Part shown: positions 21,467 through 30,582 of the stretch, piece by piece
Layout of the letters: every line of letters begins with the position of its first letter
Position numbering within the stretch: position 1 is the stretch's first letter
Source: Burkholderiaceae bacterium
GTDB lineage: Bacteria; Pseudomonadota; Gammaproteobacteria; Burkholderiales; Burkholderiaceae_B
Length of the DNA stretch: 64,000 bases
Reading direction: 5' to 3'
Assembly (NCBI GenBank): GCA_023653055.1
Contig: JAMNXR010000001.1
Location: forward strand, 248,001 to 312,000
Made by a program: the position numbers and the translations under genes
The notes under the pieces: model-generated
Database searches by the model: none
The model's input: only the letters and a program-made list of their open reading frames with translations
What the model was told of the DNA's origin: nothing

Positions 21467-22729
21467 ATGGCAATCGCAACACAGGCACTGCTGCGCGACG
21501 CAATGCGTCGTTTAAATATGACCCGTGATGTGTTTGCCGAGCGAATCGGCTGTCGGCGCAGGACGCTCGATAGCTGGTTATTACCCGATGAGTCCAGCGA
21601 ATATCGCGCGATGCCAGAAGTGGCGCGCCGTTATGTGTCGGAAATTTTGGCCAATTTACCTGACAGCACCCCGAGTGGCTCGACCGCTTCCGGATTTTCA
21701 GACAATCATTTGCTCTCGGTGGATCAGTTGAGCCGTGAGTCGGTAGAGGAGTTGTTTTGGCTTGCCGATGTGATGCAGCCAATCGCGCGCCGTCAAAAAG
21801 TCACGCGCGTACTCGAAGGCGCTGTGCTCGCCAATCTGTTTTTCGAGGCGAGCACCCGCACGCGCATCAGTTTTGGTGCCGCTTTCTGCCGATTGGGCGG
21901 TTCAGTCTGCGATACAACCGGTTTTACCTTTTCCTCAATGGCCAAGGGCGAGTCGATTTATGACACCAGCCGCGTGGTCAGCGGCTATGTGGACGCGATG
22001 GTCATCCGTCACCCTGAAAAGGGTTCTGTCGCAGAGTTTGCGCGCGCGACCAATATCCCCGTGGTCAATGGCGGTGATGGTCCAGGCGAGCATCCGAGCC
22101 AGGCTTTATTGGATCTCTATACGATCCAACGTGAGTTTTCACGTCTTGGAAAACTGATTGATGGCGCACACATCGCGATGGTGGGTGATCTGAAGTATGG
22201 CCGCACCGTACATTCGTTGATTAAGTTGTTGTCTTTATATCGCGGTTTGACGTTTACCTTAATCGCGCCCGAGTCTCTGGAAATGCCATCAGAGATTGTG
22301 GACGTGGTGAGTCGTCAAGGTCATAAAATTGAGTTCAGCGATTCACCGGCAAATGGCTTGGCCAAAGCTGATATTTTGTATGCAACACGTATTCAAAAAG
22401 AGCGTTTCGGCGAAGAAGCCATCGATGGTTATGGCGCTGAATTCGAAATCAATCAAAAGCTCGTGAATCAAGCGTGCAAGAGCGATGTGGTGATCATGCA
22501 TCCATTGCCACGAGATGGTCGACCTGGATCCTATGATCTGAGTGTTGATTTAAATGCAGATCCTCGTTTGGCAATTTTCCGTCAAACGGACAATGGTATT
22601 CCGATTCGCATGGCGATCTTCGCTAAGTTGTTAGACGTTGATCGCTTGGTGCAGCGCTCAATGCGGGACGTTACGTGGACGACACCTGCGCATATCGGAC
22701 CAGACGATGCCTTGCCAGACTTTGAATAA
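21467..22729 (+). CDS. pyrB: Aspartate carbamoyltransferase with N-terminal HTH extension
   Basis: The enzyme condenses carbamoyl phosphate and aspartate in pyrimidine synthesis. The catalytic domain begins near residue 78 and has the carbamoyl-phosphate site FFEASTRTRISF, HPEKGS, GGDGPGEHPSQAL, HPLPRDG and a C-terminal GIPIRMAI segment. At 420 residues it is about 110 longer than the standard catalytic chain. The extra length is mostly an N-terminal module (residues 8-60) with a helix-turn-helix look (LNMTRDVFAERIGCRRRTLDSWLLP) and a Ser/Thr linker. No pyrI regulatory gene or dihydroorotase-like partner is adjacent. Confidence 0.92.
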   Translation: MAIATQALLRDAMRRLNMTRDVFAERIGCRRRTLDSWLLPDESSEYRAMPEVARRYVSEILANLPDSTPSGSTASGFSDNHLLSVDQLSRESVEELFWLADVMQPIARRQKVTRVLEGAVLANLFFEASTRTRISFGAAFCRLGGSVCDTTGFTFSSMAKGESIYDTSRVVSGYVDAMVIRHPEKGSVAEFARATNIPVVNGGDGPGEHPSQALLDLYTIQREFSRLGKLIDGAHIAMVGDLKYGRTVHSLIKLLSLYRGLTFTLIAPESLEMPSEIVDVVSRQGHKIEFSDSPANGLAKADILYATRIQKERFGEEAIDGYGAEFEINQKLVNQACKSDVVIMHPLPRDGRPGSYDLSVDLNADPRLAIFRQTDNGIPIRMAIFAKLLDVDRLVQRSMRDVTWTTPAHIGPDDALPDFE

Positions 22730-23709: not shown

Positions 23710-24573
23710 ATGAATCCCTTATATACAAATAGCTCAAAGTTGGTATTGAGTGCGCACAAAGTTGCGCTTGCTTACGGCTCAGCACGTCCATTGATTGCTG
23801 ACTTTTCATTAGACGTCGAGGCAGGTGAAATTGTCACTGTACTTGGGCCTAGTGGCATTGGAAAATCCAGTCTTCTGCGTGTATTTGCGGGCTTGCAACA
23901 ATCCAGTGGTGGACAAGTTTTTGCTGGAGAAGAAGAGGTCACCGGCGCACACCCTCGCGTAGCCATGGCATTTCAAGACCCTAGTTTATTACCATGGCTA
24001 ACCTTAGAACAAAACGTTGCCTTTGGCTTAGATTTCAAACATCAGCCAAAGCTGAGCAGACAGGAACTAAAGATTCGCGTCGATCTGGCGATATGCGAAG
24101 TTGGCCTCGAGCACGCACGCACAAGATATCCACGTGAGCTTTCAGGTGGCATGGCACAGCGCACGGCACTTGCGCGTTGTATCGCACGTCAACCCTCGGT
24201 GTTGTTGTTGGATGAGCCGTTTGGCGCCCTAGATGAGGTCACGCGTGAAGCCATGCAGAAGTTGCTGCTGCGTGTTCGCGATGATTTTGGTACGGCAGCC
24301 GTGCTCATCACGCACGATATTGACGAAGCACTGAGTGTGTCAGATCGCATCGTATTGCTTGGGGGTACGCCAGCGCATGTGTTCGGTCAGTGGAGATTGG
24401 ATCGCCACCAGCCTAGAGATTTGCTTGAGTCATCGATGCAAAATCTTCGTTTAGAAATACTTCAGGCGTTGAGAGGGTCAATTGATGGCAAGTTCACACC
24501 ACATTCCTCGGTCCTTAATTTAAATCATTTACACAATACTTTTTTACATCAGGAGCTTTTGCATGTGCACTGA
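23710..24573 (+). CDS. ABC transporter ATP-binding protein (NitT/TauT type)
   Basis: This 287-residue ATPase has Walker A GPSGIGKSS at 46-54, a Q-loop in AFQDPSLLPWL, signature LSGGMAQR at 144-151, Walker B VLLLDEPFGALDE and the switch His in LITHDIDEAL. The LLPWLTLEQNV segment is typical of nitrate/sulfonate/taurine importers. It is the first gene of a six-gene unit and overlaps the substrate-binding gene by 11 bases. Confidence 0.93.
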   Translation: MNPLYTNSSKLVLSAHKVALAYGSARPLIADFSLDVEAGEIVTVLGPSGIGKSSLLRVFAGLQQSSGGQVFAGEEEVTGAHPRVAMAFQDPSLLPWLTLEQNVAFGLDFKHQPKLSRQELKIRVDLAICEVGLEHARTRYPRELSGGMAQRTALARCIARQPSVLLLDEPFGALDEVTREAMQKLLLRVRDDFGTAAVLITHDIDEALSVSDRIVLLGGTPAHVFGQWRLDRHQPRDLLESSMQNLRLEILQALRGSIDGKFTPHSSVLNLNHLHNTFLHQELLHVH

Positions 24574-25762
24574 ATACACGACACGACGCGATATGCTCAA
24601 ACTCGCCAGCCTGTTCACTGTTACTGGAGCGGCTCATCTGCTTTCGGCAGCGAATGTTTATGCACAAAGCAATCCAGATCAGCCCGTCAAAATCGGCTAT
24701 TTACCAATCACGGATGCTGCGCCATTGCTGATTGCACATCACAATGGCTATTTTGAAGAGGCGGGCGTCAAGGTTGAAAAACCGACATTATTTCGAAGCT
24801 GGGCGCAATTAGTGGAGTCCTTCATCGCGGGACAAACAAACGTTGTGCATTTGTTGTCGCCGATGACGGTATGGGCGCGTTTTGGTAGCAAGGTTCCTGC
24901 AAAAGTCGTCGCTTGGAATCACATCAATGGTTCGGCATTGACTGTTGCACCCAAGATCAATCATTTGAAAGAGTTGGGCGGCACGACAGTAGCCATTCCT
25001 TTTTGGTACTCGATTCATAACGTCGTTTTGCAAGACATGCTGCGCGCAGAGGGTCTCAAGCCTGTAGCACGACGTGTCGGTAAGGTCGAGGTTAATGAAG
25101 TGAGTCTGGTGGTTATGCCGCCCTCCGATATGTTGCCTGCCCTAGCAGCTGGCAGTATTTCTGGATACATCGTTGCCGAGCCATTTAATGCAGCGGCCGA
25201 GCTGATGAGCGTCGGCAAGGTGCTACGCTTTACAGGTGATGTTTGGCGCAATCATGCTTGCTGTACGGTATTTATGCATGAGCGTGATTTAAGTGGTCGA
25301 CCACAGTGGTCTCAAGGCGTGGTGGATGCAATTGTGCGTGCTCAGCTGTGGATTCTGGAAAACAGGGCTGAAGCAGCAAAAATATTGTCGCGCGAAAGTG
25401 GCAAACAATACACCCCACACGGTTTAAGCGCGCTGACAAAAGTCCTCGCACCACCAGCAAGTGATGCGCAAAGTTATTTGGCGTCCCGCGCCATCCGACA
25501 TGCTGATTGGAAAGAGGAGAGAATTGGCTTTCAGCCGTATCCATACCCCAGCTATACAGAAGAGTTAGTGACGCGTCTAAAGAATACGACCGTCGAAGCT
25601 GACCGTGGTTTTTTAAATCAGCTTGATCCCGCATACGCTGCGCAGGATTTAGTCGATGATCGCTTTGTCAGAAAATCCATTGAGGCAGTAGGTGGGTTAA
25701 AGAAATTCGGTGTGGAGGGTGCTTACACACGCAAAGAAACCATCGATTTGTCTAAGGCTTAA
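24563..25762 (+). CDS. ABC transporter substrate-binding protein (CmpA/NrtA-like), Tat-type signal
   Basis: This 399-residue protein has an N-terminal TRRDMLKLASLF twin-arginine motif and a hydrophobic core ending near AQS. The NMT1/SsuA/NrtA-type fold follows: VKIGYLPITDAAPLLIAHHNGYFEEAGV, then GQTNVVHLLSPMTVWARFGS. Relatives bind nitrate, bicarbonate, sulfonates or thiamine precursors; the ligand here is not evident. Use of a Tat signal suggests folding or cofactor loading before export. It overlaps the ATPase gene and is four bases from the permease start. Confidence 0.9.
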   Translation: MCTEYTTRRDMLKLASLFTVTGAAHLLSAANVYAQSNPDQPVKIGYLPITDAAPLLIAHHNGYFEEAGVKVEKPTLFRSWAQLVESFIAGQTNVVHLLSPMTVWARFGSKVPAKVVAWNHINGSALTVAPKINHLKELGGTTVAIPFWYSIHNVVLQDMLRAEGLKPVARRVGKVEVNEVSLVVMPPSDMLPALAAGSISGYIVAEPFNAAAELMSVGKVLRFTGDVWRNHACCTVFMHERDLSGRPQWSQGVVDAIVRAQLWILENRAEAAKILSRESGKQYTPHGLSALTKVLAPPASDAQSYLASRAIRHADWKEERIGFQPYPYPSYTEELVTRLKNTTVEADRGFLNQLDPAYAAQDLVDDRFVRKSIEAVGGLKKFGVEGAYTRKETIDLSKA

Positions 25763-25766
25763 GTGA

Positions 25767-26522
25767 GTGGCTACGAAAGCTTTTAGTCTCGTGCGTGGTC
25801 TAGTAGGACTACTTGTGCTACTGAGTCTTTGGTGGCTCATGACAGTTCCCTTTTCAGCAAGCACTGGCATGGTGCAGCGGTTTGCCCCAGGTCCTGCTTT
25901 GCTCACGCTTTTAGAGATGCTTGGTCGTAGTGAAATTTGGACACATATTGGTGTGAGTCTTCAGCGTGTTTTTGTGGGCCTTGGTTTTGCTTTATTAATT
26001 GGTGTGCCTTTAGGTTTAGTAATGGGCAGCTCAGCAAAACTAAATGCAACGTTTTCACCTGCATTTCAATTTTTACGCATGATCTCACCACTCTCTTGGA
26101 TGCCGATTGCAGTGATTGCTTTTGGTGTTGGTAATCACCCTGTTTATTTTTTATTGGCGTTCGCTGCTGTGTGGCCGATTATGTTGAACACCATCGCAGG
26201 CGTACGCGCGCTGGATCCTCGCTGGTTGCAGTTGTCTAAAAGTCTTGCTGCTTCACGTTGGGAGACGTTGCGCGGTGTCGTCTTGCCGGGCGTGTTGGGT
26301 CATGTATTGACGGGCGCACGTTTAGCGATTGGGATTGTCTGGATCGTCCTGGTGCCATGCGAGATGTTGGGCGTGACGGCAGGATTGGGCTATTTCATTT
26401 TGGATACACGTGATCGGCTTGCGTATCACGAGTTGATGGCGACGATCGTATTAATCGGAATCCTAGGATTTGTGTTGGATTGGTTGTTTAGAGAAATTTG
26501 TCAATTATGGAGCAAGGCATGA
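25767..26522 (+). CDS. ABC transporter permease (NitT/TauT type)
   Basis: The 251-residue permease has about six helices and a cytoplasmic EAA-like loop AASRWETLRGVVLPG that docks the ATPase. It begins with GTG at 25767, four bases after the binding-protein stop. Its TGA stop overlaps the ATG of the OsmC gene as ATGA, so translation is probably coupled. Only one permease gene is present, as in SsuC/TauC importers that homodimerise. Confidence 0.92.
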   Translation: MATKAFSLVRGLVGLLVLLSLWWLMTVPFSASTGMVQRFAPGPALLTLLEMLGRSEIWTHIGVSLQRVFVGLGFALLIGVPLGLVMGSSAKLNATFSPAFQFLRMISPLSWMPIAVIAFGVGNHPVYFLLAFAAVWPIMLNTIAGVRALDPRWLQLSKSLAASRWETLRGVVLPGVLGHVLTGARLAIGIVWIVLVPCEMLGVTAGLGYFILDTRDRLAYHELMATIVLIGILGFVLDWLFREICQLWSKA

Positions 26523-27070
26523 GCGCTACAAAACAAGCTGAGACTGTCAACGTTTATCTGCGTCCAATCGATGCGGTCGGTCTCACAGCATTTGCAGAAA
26601 AAGGTCGAGGTAATCCGACAGGTAAAGGCACCAACAAGGTTCATACAGTCTTGGAAGGGCAATATCGGTCTCTAAATTATGTGGGAGATCATGCGCCCGT
26701 GATTGTGGACGAGCCCTTGCACTTGTTTGGTGAAAATACTGCACCTGCACCTGGCGAGATTGTGCTGTCTGGTTTAGGCGGTTGTTTAGCAGTGGGTATC
26801 CAGGCAGTTGCCACGTGGAAACAAGTCAAGCTTACCAAACTTGAGATTTTTCTCGAGGGCGATATTGGTAATTCAGCGGCTTGGGGTGCCGGTGGTGCGT
26901 TAGATAAGCAGCCGACTCAGATGGGCTTTCAGGCGGTCCGCGTTAAGGTCAATATCGAAGGTAATGCTTCAAAAGAGGTGCTAGATGAAATTGTGAAGCA
27001 TGCAAACTTTTATTCGCCTGTTGCAAACAGCATACGCAACCCCATTCCTTTTGAAATCAGTTCAGTCTAG
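26519..27070 (+). CDS. OsmC family protein
   Basis: This 183-residue protein has the OsmC/Ohr fold, with a first conserved Cys in GLGGCLAVGIQAVATWK and the EGD strand after it. Characterised OsmC/Ohr proteins reduce organic hydroperoxides through two Cys residues. The second Cys in the usual VSP-C context is not visible here (the region reads FYSPVANS), so thiol peroxidase activity is uncertain. The ATGA overlap with the permease fixes the start at 26519. In this operon it may protect against peroxides from the flavoprotein or handle an acyl intermediate. Confidence 0.85.
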   Translation: MSATKQAETVNVYLRPIDAVGLTAFAEKGRGNPTGKGTNKVHTVLEGQYRSLNYVGDHAPVIVDEPLHLFGENTAPAPGEIVLSGLGGCLAVGIQAVATWKQVKLTKLEIFLEGDIGNSAAWGAGGALDKQPTQMGFQAVRVKVNIEGNASKEVLDEIVKHANFYSPVANSIRNPIPFEISSV

Positions 27071-27084
27071 TCAGAGAGTCTGCT

Positions 27085-28203
27085 ATGAAACAGTTTGAGG
27101 CAGGTAAAGAGTCAATGTTAGGAATGGTGCGCTCGATCGCGCAAGGTCACCTGTCTCGGTCTGTTCAGGCGATTGATCAGCAAGGACTTTACCCGGAGAA
27201 CGTCCTGCGTCAACTCGCCGCTGCGGGGGGAATGAGCGCACATCTGCGTGCACCTCATGGCTTTAATGATTTCGGTTTGTCTATTCATGCGATTGCCGAG
27301 GTGGGTCGAGTATGTGGTTCGACAGGCTTCATGATGTGGTGCCAGGCCGTCTGTGGGCTTTATCTACAAGAGGCCTTGTCGTCTAATTTGCACGGTACCC
27401 CACTTGCCCTGCATGTCTCTGGGGAGCGACTGGGTGGGACAGCATTGTCGAATCCCATGAAAACGTATGCCAAGATTGAATCCTTCATGCTCAAAGCGGT
27501 ACCCGTTGAGGGGGGCTATCGCGTGACGGGAAGCTTGCCTTGGGTCAGCAATCTTGGGCCTGATCATTATTGTGGTGCCATTGCCTCAATTGAGCATGAA
27601 AGCGGGACACGCGAGTTGATGTTCCTATTGCGTTGCGATGCGCAAGGTGTAACGCTGAAAGAATGTCCAAGCTTTTCAGGTATGGAGGGTACGGCTACCT
27701 ATGCCTTGCATTTGAAAGATTGTTTTGTACCAGCTGAAGAAGTGATTGCAGAGCCTGCACGACCATTGATTAAAAAAATCAGAGCGGCTTTTGTCATGTT
27801 GCAATGTGGCATGGCGGCGGGCATTATTCAAGGCGCGATTGATTCGATGTGGGCGGTTGAAGATCAGTTGGGTCATGTGAATCGTTATCTAGAGGACAGG
27901 CCCGATGCGATGCAAGAAGAGCGTGATGCGTGGTTAGACAGAGTGCTTAAGCTCGCCCAAACACCCTATGACGATTCGGATGCGTTTTTCATTCAAGTAC
28001 TCGATGCACGCGCGCATGGCGCAGAATTGAGCTTGAGAGCAGCGCAATCTGCGTTGTTACACCAGGGCGCACGAGGCTATCTAATGAGCTCAGACGTCCA
28101 GCGTCGCGTACGGGAGTCGCATTTTGTCGCGATTGTGACGCCTGCAATTAAGCACCTACGCAGTGAAATGGCTCGGCTTAGTCAGGAAACGATGCCAGCA
28201 TGA
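27085..28203 (+). CDS. Acyl-CoA-dehydrogenase-like flavoprotein
   Basis: The 372-residue protein has the fold of acyl-CoA dehydrogenases and their monooxygenase cousins (SfnB/DszC group): an all-helical N-lobe, a central beta domain with GYRVTGSLPWVSNLGPDHYCG, and a helical C-lobe. The SFSGMEGTATYALHLKDCFVP segment matches the FAD-domain border. I see no standard catalytic Glu context for beta-oxidation, which leans to an oxygenase or non-CoA substrate. It lies 14 bases after osmC and overlaps the rubredoxin gene as ATGA, so an electron-transfer partnership is plausible. This is an inference. Confidence 0.8.
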   Translation: MKQFEAGKESMLGMVRSIAQGHLSRSVQAIDQQGLYPENVLRQLAAAGGMSAHLRAPHGFNDFGLSIHAIAEVGRVCGSTGFMMWCQAVCGLYLQEALSSNLHGTPLALHVSGERLGGTALSNPMKTYAKIESFMLKAVPVEGGYRVTGSLPWVSNLGPDHYCGAIASIEHESGTRELMFLLRCDAQGVTLKECPSFSGMEGTATYALHLKDCFVPAEEVIAEPARPLIKKIRAAFVMLQCGMAAGIIQGAIDSMWAVEDQLGHVNRYLEDRPDAMQEERDAWLDRVLKLAQTPYDDSDAFFIQVLDARAHGAELSLRAAQSALLHQGARGYLMSSDVQRRVRESHFVAIVTPAIKHLRSEMARLSQETMPA

Positions 28204-29456
28204 GTATGCTAGAAGTATGGAGGGAGTATCTCTGCAAAGCGTGTGGCTATATCTACAACGAGCGTGATGGCGATGTGGACAGTGGGTTGGCACCAGGCAC
28301 GCGTTTTGAGGATATCCCTGAGGACTGGTATTGCCCAATATGCGGGGTGACCAAAACGGATTTTGTGTTGGTCGAAGCGGGGCGAGCAGGTGCTTTGTCG
28401 ACACGCTCTAGCGCTTCCACCAGTCTGCCTCGCGATAACAATTCTTCGCGTCGCTCAATCAAGAAAATTTATGATGTCTTGATTGTGGGGGGAGGGACGG
28501 CTGCCTGGAAAATAGCGGAGGTCTTACGCGCCACATCACAGGACATTTCCATTGCGATGGTTTCGCAATGCGAGGCAGATCGCTACGACAAGCCTCTTTT
28601 GTCCGTGGCGATGGCGCGAAACTTATCCTTGTCCGGACTCGTTAAAGAAACGGGCGCTGCGGCGGCACTTAGGCTGCAAGTGGCTCTTTTCTCCAATACT
28701 ACAGCCATTAGTGTCAATACTTCTCATCAGGCGCTTCGCACAACGCTCGGGAGCATTCACTATCAGCATTTGGTGATTGCCCAAGGCGCTCGATCTGTTT
28801 TGCCAGCACATCTACCAGCTGAGCATTGTTGGCGAATCAACCATCTGAATCAGTATGCAAGGTTCCGTAACGCACTTGGTTCGACGCCGCGCCGAGTGCT
28901 GGTGATCGGTGCTGGTCTCATTGGCGCGGAGTTGACGAATGATTTAGCGTTGGCAGGGCATCACGTCACGCTCGTGGATATTGCTCCAAGGCCACTTGCA
29001 CGGTTACTCACACAAGCGGAACAAGCCGAGGCATTGTTGAAAGCTTGGGAGCCTCTGCAGATTGAGTTTTTGGGTAATACGGAAGTGTTAGAGGTCAAGC
29101 CATCTTCAGTACAAGGCTATGACGTGCGCTTAAATCATGGGCGACACGTCACTGTCGATGAAATTGTTGTAGCAACTGGCCTAAAAAGCTGTGATCGCTT
29201 GGCGAATAGTGCGAATCTTGCTTGGAACAATGGAATTGTCGTGGATTCAACTACCTTAGTCACTAGCACTGAAGGGATCTATGCCTTAGGCGACTGTATT
29301 TCCATCGCGGGTGAAACAAGTCGTTTCATTGAACCTATCGGTCGACAAGCAAGAACGATTGCTAGCCAGATTGTTGGCGATGCGCTGATTCCTTATCAGA
29401 ATCAGCGTGTTCCTGTGCGCATCAAGACAACCTCTTTACCATTGACGGTCAAATAG
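28200..29456 (+). CDS. Rubredoxin-rubredoxin reductase fusion (FAD/NAD(P))
   Basis: The 418-residue protein has an N-terminal rubredoxin domain with iron ligands Cys12, Cys15, Cys45 and Cys48 (CKAC and CPIC), a Ser-rich linker (about 60-88) and a reductase domain. The reductase has an FAD site IYDVLIVGGGTAAWK, an NAD(P) site VLVIGAGLIGAELTNDLALAG, VATGLKSCDR and a final IYALGDC FAD motif. It presumably passes electrons from NAD(P)H through FAD to iron and on to a partner oxidase. Tight ATGA coupling to the acyl-CoA-dehydrogenase-like gene suggests that protein is the recipient. Confidence 0.9.
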   Translation: MSMLEVWREYLCKACGYIYNERDGDVDSGLAPGTRFEDIPEDWYCPICGVTKTDFVLVEAGRAGALSTRSSASTSLPRDNNSSRRSIKKIYDVLIVGGGTAAWKIAEVLRATSQDISIAMVSQCEADRYDKPLLSVAMARNLSLSGLVKETGAAAALRLQVALFSNTTAISVNTSHQALRTTLGSIHYQHLVIAQGARSVLPAHLPAEHCWRINHLNQYARFRNALGSTPRRVLVIGAGLIGAELTNDLALAGHHVTLVDIAPRPLARLLTQAEQAEALLKAWEPLQIEFLGNTEVLEVKPSSVQGYDVRLNHGRHVTVDEIVVATGLKSCDRLANSANLAWNNGIVVDSTTLVTSTEGIYALGDCISIAGETSRFIEPIGRQARTIASQIVGDALIPYQNQRVPVRIKTTSLPLTVK

Positions 29457-29611
29457 CGTGAGGATGAATAACTGAGGCGTTATATTTTTTAATATAAGGC
29501 GTTGTAAATCTTGACCATGGGTTTGTCGGTGATTGCGTTCTCTGAACCCGTTCTTAATGACACATTCAAAGAAATGAATAAAGAGCGGTGCAATATGCAC
29601 GGAGACAAACG

Positions 29612-30582
29612 ATGAATAAAAAAATTTCAACCTTGATCGCGAGCGGATTTACTGGTCTTGCCTTGATGTTTAGTTCAGGTGTTCATGCGAGTTACCCAGA
29701 CAAGCCCATCCGCATAATCGTGACCTTTGTCCCTGGAGGCGGTGCTGATGTGTTGGCACGCTATATGGCTAAAGAGATGGCGGATGTTTTAGGTCAACCC
29801 GTTGTGGTAGAAAATCGAACAGGTGCAGGAGGCCTGATTGGTGTCGAAGCGGGTCTCGCTGCGGCACCAGACGGCTACACATTGACCCTGATTTCCTCAA
29901 GCTACACCGTCAATCCTAGTCTATACAAACTTAAATTTGATCCTGTTAAGGAAATCTCGCCCATTATTAAAATGAGCGCAGGCCCGATGCTCGCGGTGAC
30001 CTCTAACAAATTGGGATCAAAACGGTCGCGGAGTTAGTCGCGGCTGCAAAAAAATCTCTAGGTGCTATTAATTTTGCCTCCTCAGGACAAGGGAGTGTGA
30101 TCCATCTCGCGAATGAGCTTTTTAACCAGCGCGCGGATATCAAAATGGCACACATCCCCTACAAAGGTGGTGGCAACGCTTTGGTTGATTTGCTTGCCAA
30201 TCAGGTTGATCTGTATTTTGCCGCAACCGCGAGTGCATTACCGCACGTGCGTTCTGGAAAAATTAATGCCGTGGCGGTCACGACACCGAATCGTATTCCA
30301 GCCTTGCCAGATGTGCCAACAATCGCTGAAAGTGGATTTCCTAATTATGAAGCGACCCTTTGGTACGGCCTCATTGGCCCTAAAGGAATGCCTATTGCAG
30401 TTGTAGACAGATTAAACACTGTCATCAATCAAATTTTATTAAAACCTTCTGCGAGAGAAAAGATTCAGGCTGATGGCGCCGAGCCTGCAGGTGGAACAGC
30501 GGTTGCGTTTCGAGAATCGATTGCAAATGAAATCCAGATTTGGGGCAAGGTTGTCAAAGACATTGGCATCACACCTCAGTAG
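29612..30582 (+). pseudogene. Frameshifted Bug/TctC-family binding-protein gene
   Basis: The first frame (29612 onward, ATG preceded by GGAGAC) encodes a signal peptide and the Bug core YPDKPIRIIVTFVPGGGADV. It ends at a stop at 30035-30037. The remaining Bug body continues in the +1 frame from about 30016 (IKTVAELVAAAKK, then HIPYKGGGNALVDLL) to 30582. One missing base near 30014-30016 (TTGGGATC, where TTG-GGN-ATC is expected) restores a single 323-residue reading frame. It is either a recent inactivation or a sequencing error. It lies 155 bases after the rubredoxin-fusion gene on the same strand. Confidence 0.88.

Follow-up and report, generated by a model that had tools for sequence, protein, structure and literature searches.

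Organization of the operon

The 64,000-nucleotide stretch of DNA analyzed here (the window) comes from a Burkholderiaceae bacterium (assembly GCA_023653055.1, contig JAMNXR010000001.1, positions 248,001 to 312,000) whose genome assembly is 2.84 Mb long and 95% complete. Among named species, Zwartia panacis and Zwartia vadi are its nearest relatives. The window contains a putative thiocyanate-utilization operon of six genes encoding an ABC importer, an OsmC protein, an acyl-CoA dehydrogenase (ACAD)-like flavoprotein, and a rubredoxin-reductase fusion (Table 1). The open reading frame (ORF) list and the sequence agreed with the first-pass annotation of this DNA regarding the place and strand of the six genes and the overlaps (11, 4, and 4 bases) and gaps (4 and 14 bases) that link them, and a domain search returned the same protein families that this annotation had named. 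The start of OsmC was taken as the ATG at 26519, which gives the ATGA overlap, and not as the TTG at 26498 of the mechanical ORF list.

Table 1. Genes of the six-gene operon, with positions in the window
Product	Position	Strand	Domain evidence and junction
ABC importer ATPase (NitT/TauT type)	23710-24573	+	ABC_tran 103.8 bits
Periplasmic substrate-binding protein	24563-25762	+	NMT1_2 160 bits, NMT1; 11-base overlap with ATPase ORF
ABC importer permease	25767-26522	+	BPD_transp_1 81.3 bits; 4-base gap after binding protein
OsmC, one-cysteine, proposed sulfur-accepting thiol	26519-27070	+	OsmC 74.9 bits; 4-base ATGA overlap with permease
ACAD-like flavoprotein, proposed thiocyanate oxygenase/oxidase	27085-28203	+	Acyl-CoA_dh_N; 14-base gap after OsmC
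Rubredoxin-reductase fusion, proposed electron donor	28200-29456	+	Rubredoxin 72.8 bits and Pyr_redox_2 141.1 bits; 4-base overlap with ACAD-like gene

The six-gene order was identical in Z. panacis, Z. vadi, and a related metagenome-assembled genome (loci L027, L028, and L032), whose ACAD-like proteins were 87%, 85%, and 92% identical to the window protein, respectively, and the importer ATPase was retained in these three Zwartia-type loci with 78–90% identity. Since the same order occurs in the Zwartia-type loci and the OsmC–ACAD–reductase set recurs in most loci of the wider collection described below, chance is not the cause of the linkage. Scans of the operon for sigma-70 promoters and terminators gave fewer sites than shuffled sequences.

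Conservation of the gene neighborhood

The ACAD-like protein was used as the query in a scan of named genomes, from which the best 80 of 111 relatives were used. These 80 named-genome loci (L027–L106) were combined with 20 loci from relatives (L107–L126), 8 plasmid records (L156–L163), and 37 loci from samples at class and phylum level (L190–L226), giving 145 loci. Short first looks and refetches of the same places (L001–L026, L136–L138, L142–L155, and L164–L189) were excluded, and loci from the cyanase and hydrolase searches were kept apart. The named and unnamed sets may overlap in genomes, and two or three of the 145 loci came from each of G026, G508, G605, G695, and Malikia spinosa strain 83.

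An OsmC or AhpD-like gene adjoined the ACAD-like gene in 141 of the 145 loci (OsmC in 120, AhpD-like in 21, both in none), and neither was present in the other four (L034, L078, L163, and L220), two of which, L034 and L078, end at a contig edge. Of the 80 named-genome loci, 74 had OsmC as the same-strand neighbor, and 4 had an AhpD-like protein of the carboxymuconolactone-decarboxylase family. A reductase or rubredoxin gene was adjacent in 79 of these 80 loci and in 117 of all 145. The first-pass annotation had made its proposal depend on co-conservation of the OsmC, ACAD-like, and reductase genes, and the neighborhood comparison shows that they are indeed co-conserved.

The association was also seen from the OsmC side. 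In a sample of 398 genomes across the phylum, searching with this system's OsmC family yielded 15 strong hits (at least 144 bits; next best, 71) in 14 genomes, and comparison of positions showed that 14 of the 15 adjoined an ACAD hit. The fifteenth (L266, 7357–7848) was a lone one-cysteine family member, with no other part of the system in the 15-kb stretch read.

The importer genes and the ACAD gene formed a run on one strand in Zwartia, Methylocystis, Pseudosulfitobacter, Acetobacter, Marinobacter, Moraxella, and the Synechococcus elongatus plasmid pANL, on which the ACAD–importer block sits downstream of cysK. A cysR mutant of Synechococcus is reported to be unable to use thiocyanate. In pANL, a DUF4242/SCO4226-like gene (L163, 8388–8915) precedes the ACAD gene in the place otherwise taken by OsmC or the AhpD-like gene. 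Another record filed as a plasmid in PLSDB (L161) is a chromosome-sized Neisseria gonorrhoeae sequence; its stretch carries a run of AhpD-like, ACAD-like, and rubredoxin genes in which no importer was detected. As described in PMC8049743, pANL carries many sulfur-related genes, including srpI, which is induced by sulfur starvation.

The ACAD-like flavoprotein lacks the catalytic base of acyl-CoA dehydrogenases

The AlphaFold model of the ACAD-like protein (mean predicted local distance difference test score, 92.2) has the ACAD fold, with a template modeling score of 0.84 and 18% identity to human short-chain acyl-CoA dehydrogenase, and its sequence remotely matches short-chain acyl-CoA dehydrogenases. 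Both the fold and this match would suit an ordinary acyl-CoA dehydrogenase operon for the oxidation of fatty or branched-chain acids. However, the catalytic-base position (Thr352) was occupied by Thr in 144, Ser in 2, and Glu in none of the 146 aligned rows; this position was placed by an alignment to 3pfd that ends one residue earlier, together with the YEGT motif. The position of the isovaleryl-type Glu is presumably Phe, according to a hand alignment. In addition, electron-transfer flavoprotein, hydratase, and thiolase genes were absent among the six genes, and the fixed partners of the ACAD-like gene were OsmC or AhpD-like genes, mostly accompanied by rubredoxin or a reductase. We consider a fatty acid oxidation operon extremely improbable; a normal β-oxidation dehydrogenase, which the first-pass annotation had named as the outcome that would overturn its proposal, does not fit a protein without the acyl-CoA dehydrogenase base.

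Nine residues were invariant in all 146 ACAD rows (Phe82, Trp85, Ser122, Asn123, Lys126, Trp153, Gln240, Glu344, and Pro353), and a small anion would be a fitting ligand for the conserved Lys and aromatic side chains. The first-pass annotation had further assigned the protein to an SfnB/DszC-like fold. While membership of the ACAD superfamily holds, no specific kinship to SfnB or DszC was found: the SfnB model scored 23.7 bits against a cut-off of 430.9, XiaF (5lvu) and the acyl-CoA dehydrogenase type 2 domain protein (5gj7/5z8t) were matched only with E values of about 8e-4, below the dehydrogenases, and no monooxygenase was named among the 50 listed of the 610 Foldseek matches of the model. 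The last gene of the operon encodes rubredoxin fused to a NorW-like flavoprotein of the NAD(P)H:rubredoxin-reductase type (NorW model, 209 bits, below the cut-off of 392).

A one-cysteine OsmC or an AhpD-like protein accompanies the flavoprotein

A single Cys of OsmC was invariant in 121 of 121 aligned rows. The column that we take to be that of the second Ohr Cys, placed by Ohr motifs, contained Asn in 103 rows, Lys in 6, Glu in 3, Gln in 2, Asp in 2, and Ile, Met, Leu, Thr, and Gly in 1 each; no Cys was found at or within 3 columns of this position in the 121 rows, and the cysteine pair of a two-cysteine peroxidase was thus not seen. Further Cys residues occurred elsewhere in 44 of the rows. 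At least four changes between OsmC and the AhpD-like protein were counted on a quick ACAD tree (90 of the 146 rows), in which long branches were flagged and the outgroup was very distant. Since the two proteins replace each other, these results suggest that the system may need a thiol redox partner.

Cyanase, rhodanese, and sigma-54 elements recur near the enzyme genes

A cyanase gene lay within the stretch in 53 of the 113 loci that had 5.5 kb or more of sequence on each side (named-genome loci, 37 of 60; relatives, 0 of 10; plasmids, 3 of 8; class and phylum samples, 13 of 35), and it was on the ACAD strand in 12 loci, including those of Burkholderiales, Acetobacter, and Marinobacter. At the genome level, the 398-genome sample contained 24 carriers, which we divided by hand into OsmC and AhpD types, also compiling the contingency tables by hand. 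Cyanase was present in 13 of the 14 OsmC-type genomes, which include the window genome, in 4 of the 10 AhpD-only genomes, and in 53 of the 374 non-carriers (Fisher p of 4e-10 for the OsmC type and 0.046 for the AhpD type against non-carriers, values that are overstated by kinship among the genomes). Within the genus group of the window, 18 of 19 carriers and 8 of 13 non-carriers had cyanase (p 0.03). In the window genome itself, the cyanase gene is on a different contig from the operon. Near cyanase, we also noted a candidate DUF1348/SnoaL-like gene at hydrolase loci (L260, 15785–16240; L261, 19233–19499) and at Comamonadaceae ACAD loci (such as L038, 14799–15263).

A two-domain rhodanese was encoded in 50 and a GAF/sigma-54 activator in 56 of the 80 named-genome loci. 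The 116 of 145 loci with sufficient upstream sequence were scanned for sigma-54-like sites, and a site with 11–12 of 12 matches preceded the rhodanese or OsmC gene, whichever came first among the enzyme genes, in 72 of the 76 loci with the regulator and in 25 of the 40 loci without it (shuffled mean, 5.4, the shuffles preserving base composition only).

The cyanase and rhodanese associations would also fit if the ACAD-like protein were a flavin monooxygenase that hydroxylates cyanide to cyanate, with cyanase finishing the pathway and rhodanese and OsmC handling cyanide and peroxide; the electron supply is oxygenase-like. The importer, described next, bears on this explanation.

Kinship of the binding protein with thiocyanate-hydrolase-linked proteins

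An NMT1-type binding protein, a BPD permease, and an ABC ATPase make up a NitT/TauT-type anion importer, and the binding protein starts with a twin-arginine-like sequence, as judged by eye. We compared it with the binding proteins of five thiocyanate hydrolase loci (L257–L261), which were picked from NHase_alpha matches, seven of which were fetched wide; the other two, weaker relatives, are L262 and L263. ScnC of L260 and ScnB of L261 scored 533.7 and 283.2 bits, respectively, to the solved thiocyanate hydrolase of Thiobacillus (2dd4), and ScnC of the other four loci was 86–93% identical to that of L260 (L257, 87%; L261, 93%). Judged by these matches, L257, L260, and L261 are genuine hydrolase loci.

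The window binding protein was 44–45% identical to those of L257, L260, and L261 (317–330 bits, tblastn). The latter were 54–58% identical to an ACAD-linked Marinobacter protein and 27–32% identical to a cyanase-linked one. The window protein gave lower scores to the taurine model (28.5 bits), the sulfonate (SsuA) subfamily (93.9 bits, below the cut-off of 163.5), and solved chains of the nitrate/bicarbonate type (45–61 bits), although these values mix tblastn, hidden Markov model, and phmmer scores and are comparable only roughly. In a midpoint-rooted tree of 35 binding proteins, a branch with 100/100 support separated 18 ACAD-linked and 3 hydrolase-linked proteins from 14 cyanate-type proteins, the latter including the protein encoded beside cyanase in the window genome (L265). 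The motif in the presumed ligand region was WYSxHN on the window side and [D/E/Q][Y/F]S[M/V][H/Q]N, mostly [D/E/Q][Y/F]SMHN, on the cyanate-type side. A Cys-Cys pair was common to both sides of the tree (Cys233-Cys234, invariant in 21 of 21 alignment rows), and its position is Gly-Lys in the aligned chains of the nitrate-transporter type.

The window binding protein is only 26% identical to the cyanase-linked protein of its own genome and does not group with the cyanate importer CynABD. Because the genome has this separate cyanate-type importer beside cyanase, the importer of the operon is probably for a substrate other than cyanate. No flavoprotein, OsmC, or rubredoxin gene was seen in the L265 stretch. 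The ACAD profile, which had matched 24 of the 398 genomes in the phylum sample, gave no hit in any of the five hydrolase genomes, in a search that did not itself include a positive control. L258 and L259 contain cyanase, but no importer of this kind in the stretch read. The simplest reading of these comparisons is that one thiocyanate importer family may be paired with two different enzymes.

The grouping with hydrolase-linked proteins argues against cyanide as the substrate, as does the position of the pANL copy downstream of cysteine synthase. Cyanide exists mainly as a membrane-permeant acid and needs no ABC importer. We regard cyanide hydroxylation as quite unlikely.

The importer also bears on the possibility that the flavoprotein is an organosulfur oxygenase of the SfnB/MsuC/DszC type, acting on sulfones, sulfinates, sulfonates, or organic thiocyanates or isothiocyanates, with cyanase merely a frequent neighbor. 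A NitT/TauT importer with a flavoprotein is the typical set for sulfonate assimilation, the SsuA subfamily score, even though below its cut-off, points the same way, and cyanase is missing from most AhpD-type loci. However, the SfnB model score is far below its cut-off, the sulfonate and taurine scores lie far under those to the hydrolase-linked proteins (with the rough comparability stated above), and neither a luciferase-like monooxygenase nor an FMN reductase was named in the stretches of the six annotated plasmid records among the eight. An organosulfur oxygenase is, in our judgment, unlikely.

Finally, the operon could protect cells against cyanate stress or peroxide during the import of cyanate or similar anions. 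Thiol peroxidases occur in both the OsmC and AhpD families, the two importer types are related, and cyanate-type importers are found at some ACAD loci. The OsmC of this system lacks the second Ohr cysteine, however, and the window genome encodes a cyanate-type importer and cyanase away from the operon; we consider a defense role very unlikely.

A proposed pathway for thiocyanate utilization

The first-pass annotation had read the operon as uptake, flavin-dependent oxidation, and its electron supply in sulfur or nitrogen assimilation, a reading that fits the co-conservation and the absence of the acyl-CoA dehydrogenase base. It had left the substrate open among sulfur, nitrogen, and small organic compounds. 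We can now narrow this to what we infer to be thiocyanate (SCN−), because of the binding-protein clade, the recurrence of cyanase, rhodanese, and sigma-54 elements near the enzymes, and the loss of the base combined with a one-cysteine OsmC. Thiocyanate is the likely substrate on these sequence comparisons, and we lean, with less assurance, toward the fuller reading that the operon brings SCN− into the cell and cleaves it there by oxidation to cyanate and sulfane sulfur, which would be used as sulfur and, via cyanase, nitrogen sources.

The conversion of thiocyanate to cyanate and sulfane sulfur is a two-electron oxidation. In the route that we propose, the ABC importer would take up SCN−, and the ACAD-like flavoprotein, reduced by NAD(P)H via the rubredoxin-reductase, would oxygenate it at sulfur to hypothiocyanite. 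The single conserved Cys of OsmC would trap this product, forming Cys-S-SCN. Its hydrolysis at the cyano carbon would release cyanate and leave a persulfide, from which sulfur could be passed on by rhodanese (in relatives) or cellular thiols. Cyanase would then convert cyanate to CO2 and ammonia. The main variant would be a two-electron dehydrogenation by the flavin, with electrons leaving through rubredoxin. We prefer oxygenation because it uses all the conserved parts, namely, the oxygenase-type electron supply, the single-Cys acceptor, rhodanese, and cyanase; nevertheless, oxygenation combined with persulfide chemistry is a tentative proposal that we hold at less than even odds.

Several observations weigh against the thiocyanate reading. 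No cyanase gene was found beside the operon in the window or in the stretches from its genus (none of the 10 fully flanked loci of relatives), the AhpD-type carriers have it in only 4 of 10 genomes, and no sigma-54-like site precedes the first gene in the window operon and the three Zwartia-type relatives (best match, 8 of 12). An importer of this clade was present in only three of the five thiocyanate hydrolase loci in the stretches read. Of the tree's 14 cyanate-type proteins, eight stem from ACAD loci; such importers are to be expected there if the product is cyanate. In L121 and L159, however, the cyanate-type importer lies within the ACAD run and the stretch contains no cyanase, which is missing from the whole genome in the case of L121 (G044). 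In 28 of the 145 loci, most of them alphaproteobacterial and AhpD-type, a reductase or rubredoxin gene is not adjacent, and electrons must come from a different source; going by these loci, the electron source of the system is not fixed. A warning that the presence of cyanase does not prove a cyanate pathway is given in PMC5328954, and we accordingly did not accept cyanase linkage alone as proof of thiocyanate use.

If thiocyanate is the substrate, the system might constitute a third, unrelated thiocyanate-breaking route, in which a cytoplasmic ACAD-fold flavin enzyme would be partnered by a one-cysteine OsmC (or AhpD-like) protein whose thiol accepts the sulfur. It would span beta-, gamma-, and alphaproteobacteria, with a reduced form on the cyanobacterial sulfur plasmid. 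We give this third route, its distribution, and an importer family shared with the hydrolase clusters, taken together, an even chance of being correct. Its chemistry would be distinct from that of both described thiocyanate-degrading enzymes, with an acyl-CoA dehydrogenase fold and a one-cysteine OsmC performing inorganic sulfur chemistry. For many Burkholderiales, and for bacteria beyond them, the operon would then be a candidate for the genes that underlie thiocyanate use, as well as a marker for studies of thiocyanate and cyanide pollution. It would also suggest a substrate for a group of anion importers, that is, a thiocyanate ABC transporter family common to the operon and hydrolase clusters.

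Genes flanking the operon

The flanking genes lie outside the recurring unit. Upstream is a PhzF-family gene on the opposite strand, and directly downstream is a TctC-type binding-protein gene (29588–30582) that looks interrupted, since its two ORFs (29588–30037 and 30097–30582) match separate parts of the profile. Further upstream, ORF 21467–22729 resembles aspartate carbamoyltransferase by eye, appears to be extended at its N terminus by about 75 residues similar to a helix-turn-helix, and is 95–97% identical in the Zwartia-type loci.

Comparison with known systems

None of the titles and abstract starts listed in a literature search described this cluster; most subscription journals were outside this search, and a prior account may exist. 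Several published cases were considered and set aside. The osmC gene of Pelagibacter induced under sulfur limitation was dropped, as its neighbors there are bhmT and ordL (PMC5069961). The Afipia thiocyanate desulfurase was rejected as a match, being described in PMC8061750 as a copper enzyme. In the cyanide proteome of Pseudomonas pseudoalcaligenes, OsmC and acyl-CoA dehydrogenase are absent from the main text, as far as the available part of PMC5333837 goes. The Sec-assisted organometallic (SAO) system was set aside after comparison with its description (PMC13188914): the permease and binding protein score to SaoP and SaoX and OsmC to the NCBIfam (seleno)protein model OsmC_like_Se, all below cut-off, but the six genes include no MerB-like lyase.

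The operon resembles the SsuABCDE, MsuC, and SfnB systems in combining a NitT/TauT importer with flavin oxidation for sulfur and differs from them in the weak scores of its proteins to their models. Those systems use other flavoproteins and are not known to include OsmC or rubredoxin. With CynABD–CynS, it shares a related importer with the Cys-Cys motif, and that importer and cyanase are present apart from the operon in the window genome (L265), but the binding proteins fall on opposite sides of the tree.

The thiocyanate enzymes described in PMC5328954 and PMC8061750 are the hydrolase and the copper dehydrogenase/desulfurase, and PMC5328954 names only two primary enzymatic pathways, while reporting that heterotrophs of several genera grow on thiocyanate as a nitrogen source. 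Thiocyanate dehydrogenase (TcDH) of Thioalkalivibrio resembles the proposed system in its products, cyanate and sulfur, and in a cluster with ABC genes and a sigma-54-type regulator; unlike that system, TcDH is a copper enzyme with a twin-arginine translocation signal that serves energy use (PMC5328954). The domain search found no TcDH-family member among the six genes, the TcDH sequence not having been searched in the window genome.

The domain search likewise found no subunit of the thiocyanate hydrolase (ScnABC) among the six genes. The single NHase_alpha match of the window genome (L264) gave 218 bits against nitrile hydratase and only 192 bits against ScnC; it belongs to a nitrile-hydratase-like trio on contig C4 (L264, 2648–3983; 230, 107, and 108 amino acids) with a His-rich start. 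No ACAD, OsmC, or rubredoxin reductase was detected in the five hydrolase stretches. According to PMC5328954, thiocyanate hydrolase clusters carry a NitT/TauT importer and sulfur-transfer genes, with cyanase in Thiobacillus thioparus. We found cyanase in four of the five hydrolase loci (L258–L261). The operon resembles ScnABC of Thiobacillus in the NitT-type binding-protein clade found in three of the five hydrolase loci, and it would differ in its chemistry, as the hydrolase yields carbonyl sulfide and ammonia, unlike the cyanate and sulfane sulfur proposed here.

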